DNA of 64,000 nt, taken from NCBI GenBank assembly GCA_913061235.1, contig CAJXTB010000005.1, positions 186,001 through 250,000 on the forward strand, in the 5' to 3' direction. This document shows positions 25,828 to 30,436 of the stretch, piece after piece. Source of the DNA: an uncultured Pseudomonadota bacterium (lineage in GTDB: Bacteria > Myxococcota_A > UBA796 > GCA-2862545). A program made the translations under genes and the position numbers. Positions within the stretch are counted from its first letter, which is position 1, and each line of letters opens with the position of its first letter. Under the pieces are notes generated by a model. That model saw only the letters and a list, made by a program, of their open reading frames with translations. It was not told the origin of the DNA and made no database searches.

Positions 25828-26164
25828 GAACTTGGTGAATCGCATCCGCGTCTAGCAACCCCGGTACGCGCTCATCCCGGTCTGCTGTCTGTACCGCGGT
25901 CGTCTCCCCACGCAGGCCGCCTGCCCAGCGTACCCGCCAGCCGTCTCCTGCCAGCTGGTAGCCGGTCCACCGGTAGCTCAATCGGGCACCGAGCTCCGCT
26001 TCCAGACGTCGTGCGTCCTGACCAATTGCAGTCCAGACCGTTCGCCGCCACAGATACCCCTGGAGCTTGAGCACCCACCACATGGCTAGCAAGACAGGAA
26101 TGAGAGTCACCGTTGCCCGGATGAACTCCCCGGACACCATCTTGGAGAGGCCCTCACCGCTCAT
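25808..26164 (-). CDS. Small single-TM hypothetical protein
   Basis: This 118-residue protein has one N-terminal transmembrane helix (about 14-34) followed by a basic, beta-rich soluble part. No family is recognised. Its ATG overlaps the MBL hydrolase stop (ATGA), so it is coupled to that gene. The 3' end overlaps the plus-strand membrane protein gene by 20 bp. Confidence 0.6.
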   Translation of the reverse strand: MSGEGLSKMVSGEFIRATVTLIPVLLAMWWVLKLQGYLWRRTVWTAIGQDARRLEAELGARLSYRWTGYQLAGDGWRVRWAGGLRGETTAVQTADRDERVPGLLDADAIHQVLMPKPA

Positions 26165-27027
26165 GACTCGCTACCCACCTCAACCGTCTCACCCTCGCGT
26201 GCCACGACAACACGCATGGGCCCAGGCGCTTCTTGCCAGTGCTTCGACAACGCATCCATTCGAGTGTCATCTGCGGAGGGAAGATGGTGGAACAAGCACA
26301 GGGTCTTGACCCCAGATGCTGCGCACAACGCTGCTGCATACTCTGGGTAGGCGTGTCCCCACGTCATGCGCTCGACATACTCGGCTTCGCTGAACATGGT
26401 GTCGAAGACAACAAAGTCGGCATCTTGAAGGAACGCTGAGACCCGCTCTTCAGCCGCACTCATGGCCTTGCCGGCAGCGACCCCTTCCCCGTAGGCCGCG
26501 AGTGGAGCCGTGTCCGTCACGTAGCAAAACGACCGACCGCCTCGTTCAATCCGGTATGCCAACGAGCCACCTGGATGATTCAGCGCACAGGCGATGACCT
26601 CAAAGCCAGCCCGCTTGAACGGCTGCCCAGGACGCATTCCAGCAATCACAAGCTTGCAGTTCATGTCGTCGAGGCGAAGCGGATGCAAAGTTCCGTTTAG
26701 GTAGCGTGTGATCTTCTCACTCGCTTCTTCGTCACTAAACGCCGGGACAGTCACGGTCACGTTGACGTCAGGCTGATGCAGCGGCGCAAAGAATGGCAAC
26801 CCGACAACGTGATCGATGTGCACGTGACTCAGCAGGATGTCCACCCGCGACGCGCCGGCACTAGCAATCCTCTGGCCGAGACGACGAATACCGGTTCCGC
26901 AATCGAGGATAAGCGGTGGCTCACCAGGAACCGACACCTCTAAGCAGGACGTATTGCCGCCCCACCGCATGTGGTCGCTGTCTGGCGTCGGAATCGAGCC
27001 GCGAACACCCCAGAAAGTAACGTTCAT
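26161..27027 (-). CDS. MBL-fold metallo-hydrolase
   Basis: This 288-residue protein of the metallo-beta-lactamase superfamily carries HVHIDH (the HxHxDH zinc motif), a later Asp in YVTDTAPL, a FDTMF segment and the C-terminal LFHH. The N terminus MNVTFWGVRGSIPTP matches the group related to PhnP and RNase Z-like phosphodiesterases. The substrate is unknown. An in-frame reading frame continues upstream through the tRNA gene and is spurious; ATG 27027 is the natural domain start, though its ribosome binding site is weak. The tRNA-Arg gene lies about 90 bp upstream on the same strand. Confidence 0.9.
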   Translation of the reverse strand: MNVTFWGVRGSIPTPDSDHMRWGGNTSCLEVSVPGEPPLILDCGTGIRRLGQRIASAGASRVDILLSHVHIDHVVGLPFFAPLHQPDVNVTVTVPAFSDEEASEKITRYLNGTLHPLRLDDMNCKLVIAGMRPGQPFKRAGFEVIACALNHPGGSLAYRIERGGRSFCYVTDTAPLAAYGEGVAAGKAMSAAEERVSAFLQDADFVVFDTMFSEAEYVERMTWGHAYPEYAAALCAASGVKTLCLFHHLPSADDTRMDALSKHWQEAPGPMRVVVAREGETVEVGSES

Positions 27028-27118
27028 CAGGCGATGTTCCACGAATTTGGCACGTTCACTCCTGCGGGGAGTCTCTAGCATACCGCAGAACGCGCTACCG
27101 CGGAACGGATGGGGGTGG

Positions 27119-27195
27119 TGGCGCGCGATACAGGAATCGAACCTGTGACCTCTGGCTTCGGAGGCCAGCGCTCTATCCAGCTGAGCTAACCGCGC
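27119..27195 (-). tRNA. tRNA-Arg (anticodon CCG)
   Basis: Read on the minus strand, the 7-bp acceptor stem GCGCGGT pairs with ATCGCGC, with one G-U pair. The anticodon stem CTGGC/GCCAG encloses the 7-nt loop CTCCGAA, giving anticodon CCG for the Arg codon CGG. The T arm is ACAGG-TTCGATT-CCTGT. The discriminator is G and CCA is encoded (27119-27121). All arms fold, so this is a functional-looking gene. It sits between the 177-residue hypothetical gene and the MBL gene, all on the same strand. Confidence 0.98.
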
Positions 27196-27256
27196 AGCGC
27201 ACCTTCCCACGAGCGAACTCGCAAGAGCCACCATCTTATTCCGACTACAGCGGCTG

Positions 27257-27790
27257 TCAACCCGCTGCGAGACCACCCTGCGACCAAGACTTCATCTTGG
27301 GCAGCGTTTCAGATTCCCAGTTGTTGTCCTGACGAGCCTTGGCGAACACTGTGAACAACGCAGCAACCACCTTTTCCAGCTCTTCGTAGTGGAACATGCG
27401 GTCGTAAAGCGGCGATTCGTCGGCATCGGTTCCGCTTGGCGGAAGCTTTGCGCGCTGAATAGCGACCGCAGCGCCCTTCAAGGACACCGAGTATTCGCGG
27501 TCATCGCGGCGAATGCGCAGACGAATTTCTTCGACCACCTTGCCGCCGGCCAGCGCCGCACGTGACTCAAGCGCTGTGGACGCGTCATCTCCCGTGAGAA
27601 CCGCTGAGACCTTTGTGTCGCCAGGGCGACGGAAGACCAAGCGCTCGTCTACCCAGACCTCGACCTGCCCCATGGGCTCGCCGAGCTCGAAGCGCGCGCT
27701 GTTTCGTTCGCTTTCCCACCACAGCCACACATAAAACTCCGAGGAGAGATGTGGTGGGGTCGGAAGTCCCTCTTCGTTTGCGTCGCTCAT
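27257..27790 (-). CDS. Hypothetical protein coupled to RdgC-like gene
   Basis: This 177-residue protein has no signal peptide or membrane segment. It looks like a small alpha/beta domain with a GQVEVWVDERLVFRR stretch, an EEIRLRIRRDDREYSVSLKG stretch and a C-terminal helical part. No family is recognised. Its start overlaps the stop of the RdgC-like gene by 4 nt, so the two are probably made together and may form a complex. The tRNA-Arg gene follows 61 bp downstream. Confidence 0.75.
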   Translation of the reverse strand: MSDANEEGLPTPPHLSSEFYVWLWWESERNSARFELGEPMGQVEVWVDERLVFRRPGDTKVSAVLTGDDASTALESRAALAGGKVVEEIRLRIRRDDREYSVSLKGAAVAIQRAKLPPSGTDADESPLYDRMFHYEELEKVVAALFTVFAKARQDNNWESETLPKMKSWSQGGLAAG

Positions 27791-28404
27791 TCCGTCTCCA
27801 TCGCAAGGAAGCTAGGTGCCGAGTTCATCATCATTTCGACGGACGACTTGTCTTGTAGCCAATCCAGCGGTGACCATGGCACAAGGCGCAGACCAAAGCT
27901 GTTGAAGAACCGCTTGCGGAAACGGTCTACGACGCTGTCGCTAGACGCAGCAAGCAACAAGAACTGGTCGTCCAGGTGCCAGCATGCTTCGGTGACGGCA
28001 ACGCGCGGAAGCGTCTTCTTGAGCAGCTCGTACTCTAGATCTTCCAGTAGGTCGGTACGCACAGATGCCGGACAGCGTTGAACGCCGCGCTCTTCCGCCC
28101 ACGCTTCACAGCGCTTCTGCAGCATGGCCTTGACCAGTCTGCCAGGTAGCGACTTCTTGTCGACGCGAAGCGCAAACAGCATGTACGAAGGCTCAAACAG
28201 CCACCGCGTGAAGTCGGTGAAATCCATGTCCAAAAGGTTCTGGGTAAGAACCCAGCCCTCGGTCTCTTCTTTGCCGATGTCCGTCAGCGGTTCTTTGAAC
28301 GCGTTCTCTTGCAGGCCCTCACGGAAGCGGTCGCGAAACCCCTCCGGCAAGTCACCGACAACTCGAAAGCGACGGACGGAAAGCGCCCCCGTCATGATTC
28401 CCAA
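27787..28404 (-). CDS. Short RdgC-like recombination-associated protein
   Basis: The 205-residue protein resembles the short RdgC-family proteins of Myxococcota. The opening GALSVRRFRVVGDLPEGFRD is followed by ENAFKEP, GWVLTQNLLD, FALRVDKKSLPGRLVKAML, and LPRVAVTEACWHLDDQ. E. coli RdgC (about 300 residues) forms a ring on DNA and restrains RecA. This version is about two thirds of that length. Homology is inferred from the order of these blocks, so I give no symbol. It is coupled to the 177-residue gene downstream. A 6-bp inverted repeat (28423-28428 / 28435-28440) lies just ahead of the start. Confidence 0.78.
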   Translation of the reverse strand: MGIMTGALSVRRFRVVGDLPEGFRDRFREGLQENAFKEPLTDIGKEETEGWVLTQNLLDMDFTDFTRWLFEPSYMLFALRVDKKSLPGRLVKAMLQKRCEAWAEERGVQRCPASVRTDLLEDLEYELLKKTLPRVAVTEACWHLDDQFLLLAASSDSVVDRFRKRFFNSFGLRLVPWSPLDWLQDKSSVEMMMNSAPSFLAMETE

Positions 28405-28528: not shown

Positions 28529-29305
28529 CTAGCCTTCGCGCAGATGGTCCAGCGCGTGACGGAAAATCACCGCCTCAGAGTCGCCCTTGAGAGTCAGACC
28601 CAACTCAAAGCGCGAGACCCAGCGAATCAGACCAGACAGCTGCATGCCTTCCAGCGTTGTCACTGTGACTGGGGTCTCTTCGTCCAAACAGCGGAACAAG
28701 CGCTTGTCCGAGCATGGGTAGCGGTCTTGCGGCTTGGGGACCGGGTCCTTGGGTTCCGCACCACGTTTCTTGTCGGTCTTGAGGACCTTACGCACGCGCT
28801 TCCAGCTGTCTGGACTCCAGGCAGCCATGGCCTGTAGCTTGTGAATTTCCTCAGGCTCGCCACCTTCCACCGTCAGGTTGAACGAGTACGGAGTCATGGC
28901 CGAGACAACGCCGGTAAGGCGACGACGACCGTGCATATCCACCGTGAGAGGCTCACCACTCTCGGCAAAGACTTCCAGGATGCTGTGGTTGCGGAACTCG
29001 ACACGGTGGGCTTCGAATCTCTGTCGTGCCAGTACTCGCTCAAGATCAGCATGCCCCATTGCGACCTGTGTCGCGAGAGCACGGGAGAGGTCGTGCCGCT
29101 TCATCAAGGTGGCAACCTTGTCTTGGCGAGCCATCCGCTCAAGCGCTTCCGACAAGGTCAGCTTGCCATGAGCAACAGCCATGGCCATCTGAAAAGGCAT
29201 ACCGGACGCAGCAAGCTCTTCAGCTTTCTTGCGCGCCTGCTCCTCAGACTGACCCTTCTTCGCATCTTTAGAGGGGCCGTAGTCTTGAACGAGACGACGT
29301 GGCAT
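28529..29305 (-). CDS. Protein with two Hfq/LSm-like domains
   Basis: The protein has 258 residues. Residues 25-95 are helical with two related segments (AMAVAHGKLTLSEALER and LATQVAMGHADLERVLAR). Residues about 105-160 and about 200-256 each look like an Sm fold: SGEPLTVDMHGRRRLTGVVSAM in the first, and ETPVTVTTLEGMQLSGLIRW followed by VIFRHALDHL in the second, which parallels the KHAIS segment of Hfq. A basic linker (170-195) joins them. Hfq proteins bind RNA as rings. Two Sm units in one chain with a helical domain is unusual. ATG 29305 is preferred, with AAGGA upstream, over TTG 29362. RNA binding is an inference. Confidence 0.8.
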   Translation of the reverse strand: MPRRLVQDYGPSKDAKKGQSEEQARKKAEELAASGMPFQMAMAVAHGKLTLSEALERMARQDKVATLMKRHDLSRALATQVAMGHADLERVLARQRFEAHRVEFRNHSILEVFAESGEPLTVDMHGRRRLTGVVSAMTPYSFNLTVEGGEPEEIHKLQAMAAWSPDSWKRVRKVLKTDKKRGAEPKDPVPKPQDRYPCSDKRLFRCLDEETPVTVTTLEGMQLSGLIRWVSRFELGLTLKGDSEAVIFRHALDHLREG

Positions 29306-29392: not shown

Positions 29393-30436
29393 TCAGGCTG
29401 CGCTCTGGCGCAGAAACTCTTCGACCCCAGTCAGCAACGACAACAGGTGGTCCCCGTCGATATGCACCAGCACTCCACGCCCGGCCTTCGACGCTGGTAC
29501 GGGTTTATCAACCCCCCAAGCCACACACAGGTCGTTTCGCGCAAGCGGACCCGTCGCATCAATGTCCGCCGGGTTGGACACGAAGCGAAGCGTCACACGT
29601 GGGTCCAAGCCTTCGCGCAGGGTCTTGTTCCATGCGGGACGGCCGCCGACGACAGTGACGCGACGCAGGCCGTGAAGCATCAAGATCTCCCCGAAGCGGG
29701 CGAGACCACGAGACAGGTCTTGGCCGCCGGGCACATCCGCTCGGTCCGATGCCACCGCAACTGCAGCCAGGGTCTCCGGCAGGCCCGTGGGAACCGAGCC
29801 CCCAACCAACACCAGGCGCTGCTCCAGCACACTCATCACTCGGTCCGGCCTGTCGCAGCGAAGTAGTTCAATGATCGGTCGGAGCTGACGCCGCTCAGCC
29901 AAGGCTGCTAAGGCTCTCTCACATTCGTCCATTCCGCGAAGCCCGCGTTTATGAAGCATAAACGCCAAGAAAGTCTCGTCATCTTCACGTGGTTTCTCAG
30001 CATCGATCAGGGCTATCCGCAGCCGTGAGCGCTCCTGATCCAGTGCCGCTTGTTCGGTGATCAGCGACGCACGTGCCACTTCCAGCGATTGACGCTCAGC
30101 GTGCACTTGGGCAGTGGCCGCTTCAAGCTCGGTCCGCAGACGCGCTAACGCCTGACGCTCAAGGGCCACGCGCGCCGTCTCGCTAGCCAAAGGGACAGAC
30201 GACGTTTCCTGAGCGGGCAGAGGACGGGCGACTGGCGGCCGCACCGGAGGAGGACGACGAACAGGACGTGACGGAGGTACCGCACGAACGGCCGTCCGCA
30301 GTGCATCCTCCGCGTTGGCTGGCAGCATCTGATTGGCGTTGTTGTACTGGGACAACCCCAACGTCTTCAGCAGTTCGAGAAGGTCTTCTGGCGCACGCCC
30401 GAGCTGTCGGGCGAGCTTTCGCACGCGAATGGCCAT
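29393..30436 (-). CDS. IF2_N / coiled-coil / DUF2325-like protein
   Basis: This 347-residue protein has a mosaic layout. Residues 1-50 match the small N-terminal domain of translation initiation factor IF-2 (IRVRKLARQLGRAPEDLLELLK, here on a stand-alone protein). A Pro/Arg-rich linker covers 52-85 and a coiled coil 86-145. A C-terminal part follows in which 258-330 (VTVVGGRPAWNKTL and NDLCVAWGVDKPVP) looks like a Rossmann-type DUF2325 domain. IF2_N domains bind ribosome or other partners. No GTPase domain is present, so it is not IF-2. It lies between the TPR protein and the tandem-LSm gene on the same strand. Function unknown. Confidence 0.8.
   Translation of the reverse strand: MAIRVRKLARQLGRAPEDLLELLKTLGLSQYNNANQMLPANAEDALRTAVRAVPPSRPVRRPPPVRPPVARPLPAQETSSVPLASETARVALERQALARLRTELEAATAQVHAERQSLEVARASLITEQAALDQERSRLRIALIDAEKPREDDETFLAFMLHKRGLRGMDECERALAALAERRQLRPIIELLRCDRPDRVMSVLEQRLVLVGGSVPTGLPETLAAVAVASDRADVPGGQDLSRGLARFGEILMLHGLRRVTVVGGRPAWNKTLREGLDPRVTLRFVSNPADIDATGPLARNDLCVAWGVDKPVPASKAGRGVLVHIDGDHLLSLLTGVEEFLRQSAA

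Follow-up and report, generated by a model that had tools for sequence, protein, structure and literature searches.

A gene on the minus strand of the window, the 64,000-nucleotide stretch of bacterial DNA that we analysed, appears to encode a divergent tandem Hfq. We put the probability at roughly 0.6 that this protein forms a three-chain ring of six Sm units, with a divided pore that would bind U-rich 3' ends. The features on which this reading is built are collected in Table 1. The original prediction, made from the letters of the sequence, had placed here an open reading frame for a protein with a helical N-terminal repeat, two Hfq/LSm-like domains (at about residues 105-160 and 200-256) and a basic linker. 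The reading frame is present, running from an ATG at 29305 (-) to a stop at 28529 with a Shine-Dalgarno-like stretch, AAGGA, directly 5' of it, and the gene is single-copy in its own 7.18 Mb genome. The domains were located at residues 101-165 and 199-258, with the Sm strand order in the AlphaFold model. The linker was indeed basic, with a net charge of +6 over residues 164-198; its pLDDT is low at about 171-196 and its disordered part comprises ~20 residues in the model. The head is likewise basic, and the two domains, at -3 and -2, are slightly acidic. At the end of the second domain, the segment described earlier as KHAIS-like reads F-R-H-A-L, a divergent form of the Hfq Y-K-H-A-I motif.

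Table 1. Features of the tandem-Hfq gene and its neighbours (positions in the window).
Feature	Position	Strand	Evidence
Tandem-Hfq protein, 258 aa	28529..29305	(-)	ORF with SD-like AAGGA; 40-member alignment A1
Helical head, two 37-residue repeats (residues 23-59, 60-96)	29018..29239	(-)	hhalign, shuffled control, AlphaFold
Hfq/Sm domain 1 (residues 101-165; invariant K156, aromatic 140)	28811..29005	(-)	A1 profile, VIA-align
Basic, partly disordered linker (residues 164-198; invariant R195 in PQDRY motif)	28712..28816	(-)	charge, pLDDT, A1
Hfq/Sm domain 2 (residues 199-258; invariant G220, G225, H250)	28532..28711	(-)	Pfam, A1 profile, VIA-align
RdgC-like protein, 205 aa, next gene downstream	27787..28404	(-)	PF04381 35.3 bits, cut-off 25
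177-aa protein, no known family	27257..27790	(-)	4-nt overlap with 27787-28404; pairs with RdgC-like gene
Upstream neighbour, 347 aa: weak IF2_N match and long coiled coil	29393..30436	(-)	PF04760 E 0.0033, below cut-off

With the window protein alone as the query, all matches to curated Hfq models fell under their cut-offs. Domain 2 matched Pfam PF17209 with an E-value of 1e-4 and 22.3 bits (cut-off 27), and the protein scored 22.0 bits against TIGR02383 (cut-off 61.7). It scored 20.4 bits against NCBIfam NF010691 (Hfq, 176 positions; curated cut-off 270), which we presume may be a model of the Sphingomonadales tandem Hfq and which had no match above its cut-off in 379 phylum genomes. Searches of PDB sequences gave weak Hfq matches, the best at E 0.0097. 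A profile was built from alignment A1, which holds 40 full-length members that are 20-50% identical to the window protein. This profile detected the Hfq of M. jannaschii (5dy9, E 8.5e-6) through domain 2, and those of S. aureus (1kq1, E 1.8e-4) and Caulobacter (6gwk, E 4.6e-4) through domain 1. The AlphaFold model, for which the input alignments had four rows of window sequences and related loci, reached a mean pLDDT of 81.8 and about 90 across both Sm folds, each with the order of a helix and five strands. The head was modelled as helical at residues 14-104, with a helix pLDDT of ~90, and had no family match in Pfam. Structure prediction and a search against Hfq had been proposed as a check on the original prediction, and both domains took the Hfq topology in AlphaFold, while Foldseek and VIA-align returned Hfq for each. 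In the search with the whole model the matches were taken up by domain 2 (VIA-align Z 7.2, rmsd 0.8 to 3hfo). A separate model of the head and domain 1 again matched Hfq (Z 9.6 over 65 residues, rmsd 2.2 to 3hfo), which made up nearly all of the top 50 VIA-align entries for domain 1. Collectively, the profile searches of PDB sequences and the three structural programs make the assignment of both domains as predicted Hfq-type Sm units well supported.

The two domains are also related to each other. Their profiles aligned with an hhalign probability of 94.9 and a score of 36.8, compared to a maximum of 12.1 in 60 column shuffles, at an identity of about 16-20%. The predicted helical repeat was borne out in the same way, since residues 23-59 aligned with residues 60-96 at a probability of 97 and a score of 43.6 (best of 60 column-shuffled controls, 12.3). 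A tree was built from 80 domain sequences on only 64 columns, and one of its branches parted all first domains from all second domains with a support of 100/99. This split suggests that the duplication is older than the spread of the family and that both units have been retained since its origin; to judge from those few columns, a single parting of the two domains would have preceded the radiation of the family. The family would then be a natural experiment in which a homomeric ring was turned asymmetric through duplication.

K156, R195, G220, G225 and H250 are invariant in all 40 members of A1. Alignment with solved Hfqs placed Y140 of domain 1 and F233 of domain 2 at the position of F42, and this aromatic is kept throughout, as Y or F in 40/40 first domains and as F, Y or W in 40/40 second domains. 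The Y-K-H motif is divided between the domains: its Lys is invariant only in domain 1 (K156) and its His only in domain 2 (H250). At the Lys-equivalent site, domain 2 has R in place of K in the window's order and no basic residue in most of the distant members. The pore-His site of domain 1 holds H in 7/9 distant members (as K-H-D) and mostly L or T in the window's order, where the His may have been lost if the change ran in that direction. The arginine rim and distal-face Tyr of E. coli Hfq have no conserved counterpart in the family, in a mapping of these positions that is in part our assumption.

To define the distribution of the family, genomes were searched with single-sequence queries from three members. 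The window protein found relatives in 44/189 genomes of the phylum, a distant member added one more (G031), and reverse searches with the distant and the third member recovered the close group. One match (L044/G032, E 2.7e-4) was judged false by alignment and dropped, leaving about 44/189 genomes. The sampled phylum is probably Myxococcota, and 32 of the 33 genomes sampled from the window's order carry a tandem Hfq. The plasmid and phage collections gave no tandem-Hfq match. A contig titled as a Klebsiella pneumoniae MAG (L032) holds a close family member together with its neighbours, and is probably mis-binned or mislabelled. In the window's own genome, which is 99% complete, the Pfam Hfq model found only the tandem-Hfq gene, and ProQ was absent. 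The same model found canonical Hfq in 0/189 phylum genomes; its sole match above cut-off (G097) is itself a member of the tandem-Hfq family. The family is widespread, has no name as yet, and occurs in bacteria where standard searches detect no Hfq. In these bacteria the tandem Hfq probably serves as the principal Hfq-type RNA-binding protein. The absence of another Hfq and of ProQ from the genome makes the chaperone role raised in the original prediction more plausible, and the protein is a strong candidate for the missing RNA chaperone of its group. In myxobacteria, small RNAs (Pxr) serve multicellular development, the genomes have been reported to be without Hfq, and an alternative RNA chaperone has been suggested (PMC5568312). 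A cryptic double-Hfq family in about 44/189 genomes, probably of the same phylum, makes this chaperone question testable there.

The gene is followed on the same strand by the RdgC-like gene and then the 177-aa gene in 24/26 loci of the class examined, and an MBL-fold gene often comes after these two. In the window, a tRNA-Arg (CCG) at 27119-27195 (-), with a sigma-70-like promoter directly before it, falls within the start listed for the MBL-fold ORF (26161-27276), so this ORF must truly begin further downstream. The 347-aa IF2_N-like neighbour is kept near the tandem-Hfq gene in part of the order; 11 loci, the window's among them, have it upstream in the same orientation. PADLOC gave no match for four neighbouring proteins. 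Conserved pairing of the RdgC-like protein (about 205-240 aa) with the 177-aa protein is seen throughout the phylum (L136, L137 and L139 are pair loci) without an adjoining tandem Hfq, and in some genomes the two are apparently fused in one open frame. The idea that a hidden tandem Hfq always lies beside the RdgC-like gene was rejected, as 0/20 regions had one adjoining. The pair is thus a separate unit to which the tandem-Hfq gene has become attached in the window's order. In five distant genomes (L036, L038, L039, L042 and L043) the tandem-Hfq gene lies directly 5' of, or overlaps, a conserved gene, which is priA in both loci scanned (L038 and L042).

How such a protein might work can be sketched from these features. 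The two Hfq/Sm units of a chain would most likely sit next to each other, joined by the usual beta4-beta5 contact, and three chains would close a ring of six Sm units in which the two kinds alternate, much like the trimer-of-dimers ring of the original prediction. In its pore, unit 1 would supply a Lys and unit 2 a His, both would contribute an aromatic at the F42-equivalent position, and small RNAs or mRNAs would be bound there by their U-rich 3' ends. In annealing, the arginine rim of Hfq may be replaced by the basic linker together with the N-terminal tail, and the helical heads, three per ring, may recruit a protein partner. This divergent-Hfq explanation is weakened by the missing conservation of the E. 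coli arginine rim and distal-face Tyr. It is weakened further by the apparent loss of the domain 1 pore His in the order, by the lack of a basic residue at the Lys-equivalent site in most distant second domains, and by gene neighbours, RdgC-like and PriA, that are DNA proteins.

The same neighbours invite a different reading, in which a nucleic-acid-binding ring serves DNA maintenance (replication restart, recombination or R-loops) rather than small-RNA regulation, with an RdgC-like or a PriA partner depending on the clade. The position upstream of the RdgC-like gene in nearly all loci of the class and the overlap with, or close approach to, a PriA-type gene in the five distant genomes both fit. 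However, the RdgC-like pair occurs phylum-wide without an adjoining tandem Hfq, so the link is not obligatory, the RdgC-like gene sits elsewhere in the PriA clade, and the relatives of the protein by sequence are RNA-binding Hfqs; we consider this reading unlikely. It is slightly less improbable, at about one chance in four, that the protein is an Hfq-type RNA binder with another assembly. Six first units and six second units could form two stacked homo-rings, or one unit could form the ring and the other decorate it. The strong divergence of the domains agrees with this, and the disordered residues of the linker would permit either arrangement, but an alternating ring fits better with the retention of a different pore residue by each domain in all members (K156 and H250). 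Least likely of all is that the Sm folds now act as a scaffold for protein-protein contacts and bind no nucleic acid. The lost rim and distal-face residues and the slight acidity of the domains would suit a scaffold, whereas the uridine-pocket aromatic and the Lys/His positions are among the best conserved sites, and the head and linker are basic.

Returning to the divergent tandem Hfq, we hold at a little under even odds its widest form, a hidden Hfq at the level of the phylum: an asymmetric tandem ring with a helical, protein-recruiting crown and a divided Lys/His pore that acts as the main small-RNA matchmaker. If true, this would supply such a matchmaker in bacteria that were thought to be without one.

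Compared to Hfq, the family has the same Sm fold in both units, a helix plus five strands, and the pore aromatic is present in both, with the K/H pore positions divided between them. Unlike Hfq, it has two units per chain, each far under curated cut-offs, together with a helical repeat head and a basic linker, and the rim Arg patch is not conserved. The original prediction rightly took one Sm unit per chain as normal for Hfq; the tandem form itself, however, had already been described in Zymomonas mobilis and in six further species of Sphingomonadales, with two Sm domains each, and the authors of that work asked if three chains would form a six-unit ring (PMC2877685). The Sphingomonadales protein (ZMO0347 in Z. 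mobilis) shares the two Sm units per chain. In contrast to the present family, which is only remotely related, it is close to ordinary Hfq, with 60% identity to that of E. coli (PMC2877685), and it differs from our protein, in which a helical repeat head precedes both units. Among the sequences matched by domain 2, the archaeal Hfq-like protein MJ1435 (5dy9, 2qtx) ranks first, and it shares the Glu that follows the pore aromatic, but it is a single unit of 71 aa. Burkholderia Hfq2 is also an enlarged Hfq, but with one Sm unit and a disordered Gly-rich tail, and it occurs alongside an ordinary Hfq (PMC7074383). A tandem Hfq is thus not unprecedented, and the present family is set apart by its remote sequence, its helical repeat head, its predicted divided pore and its presence in bacteria where no other Hfq turned up.
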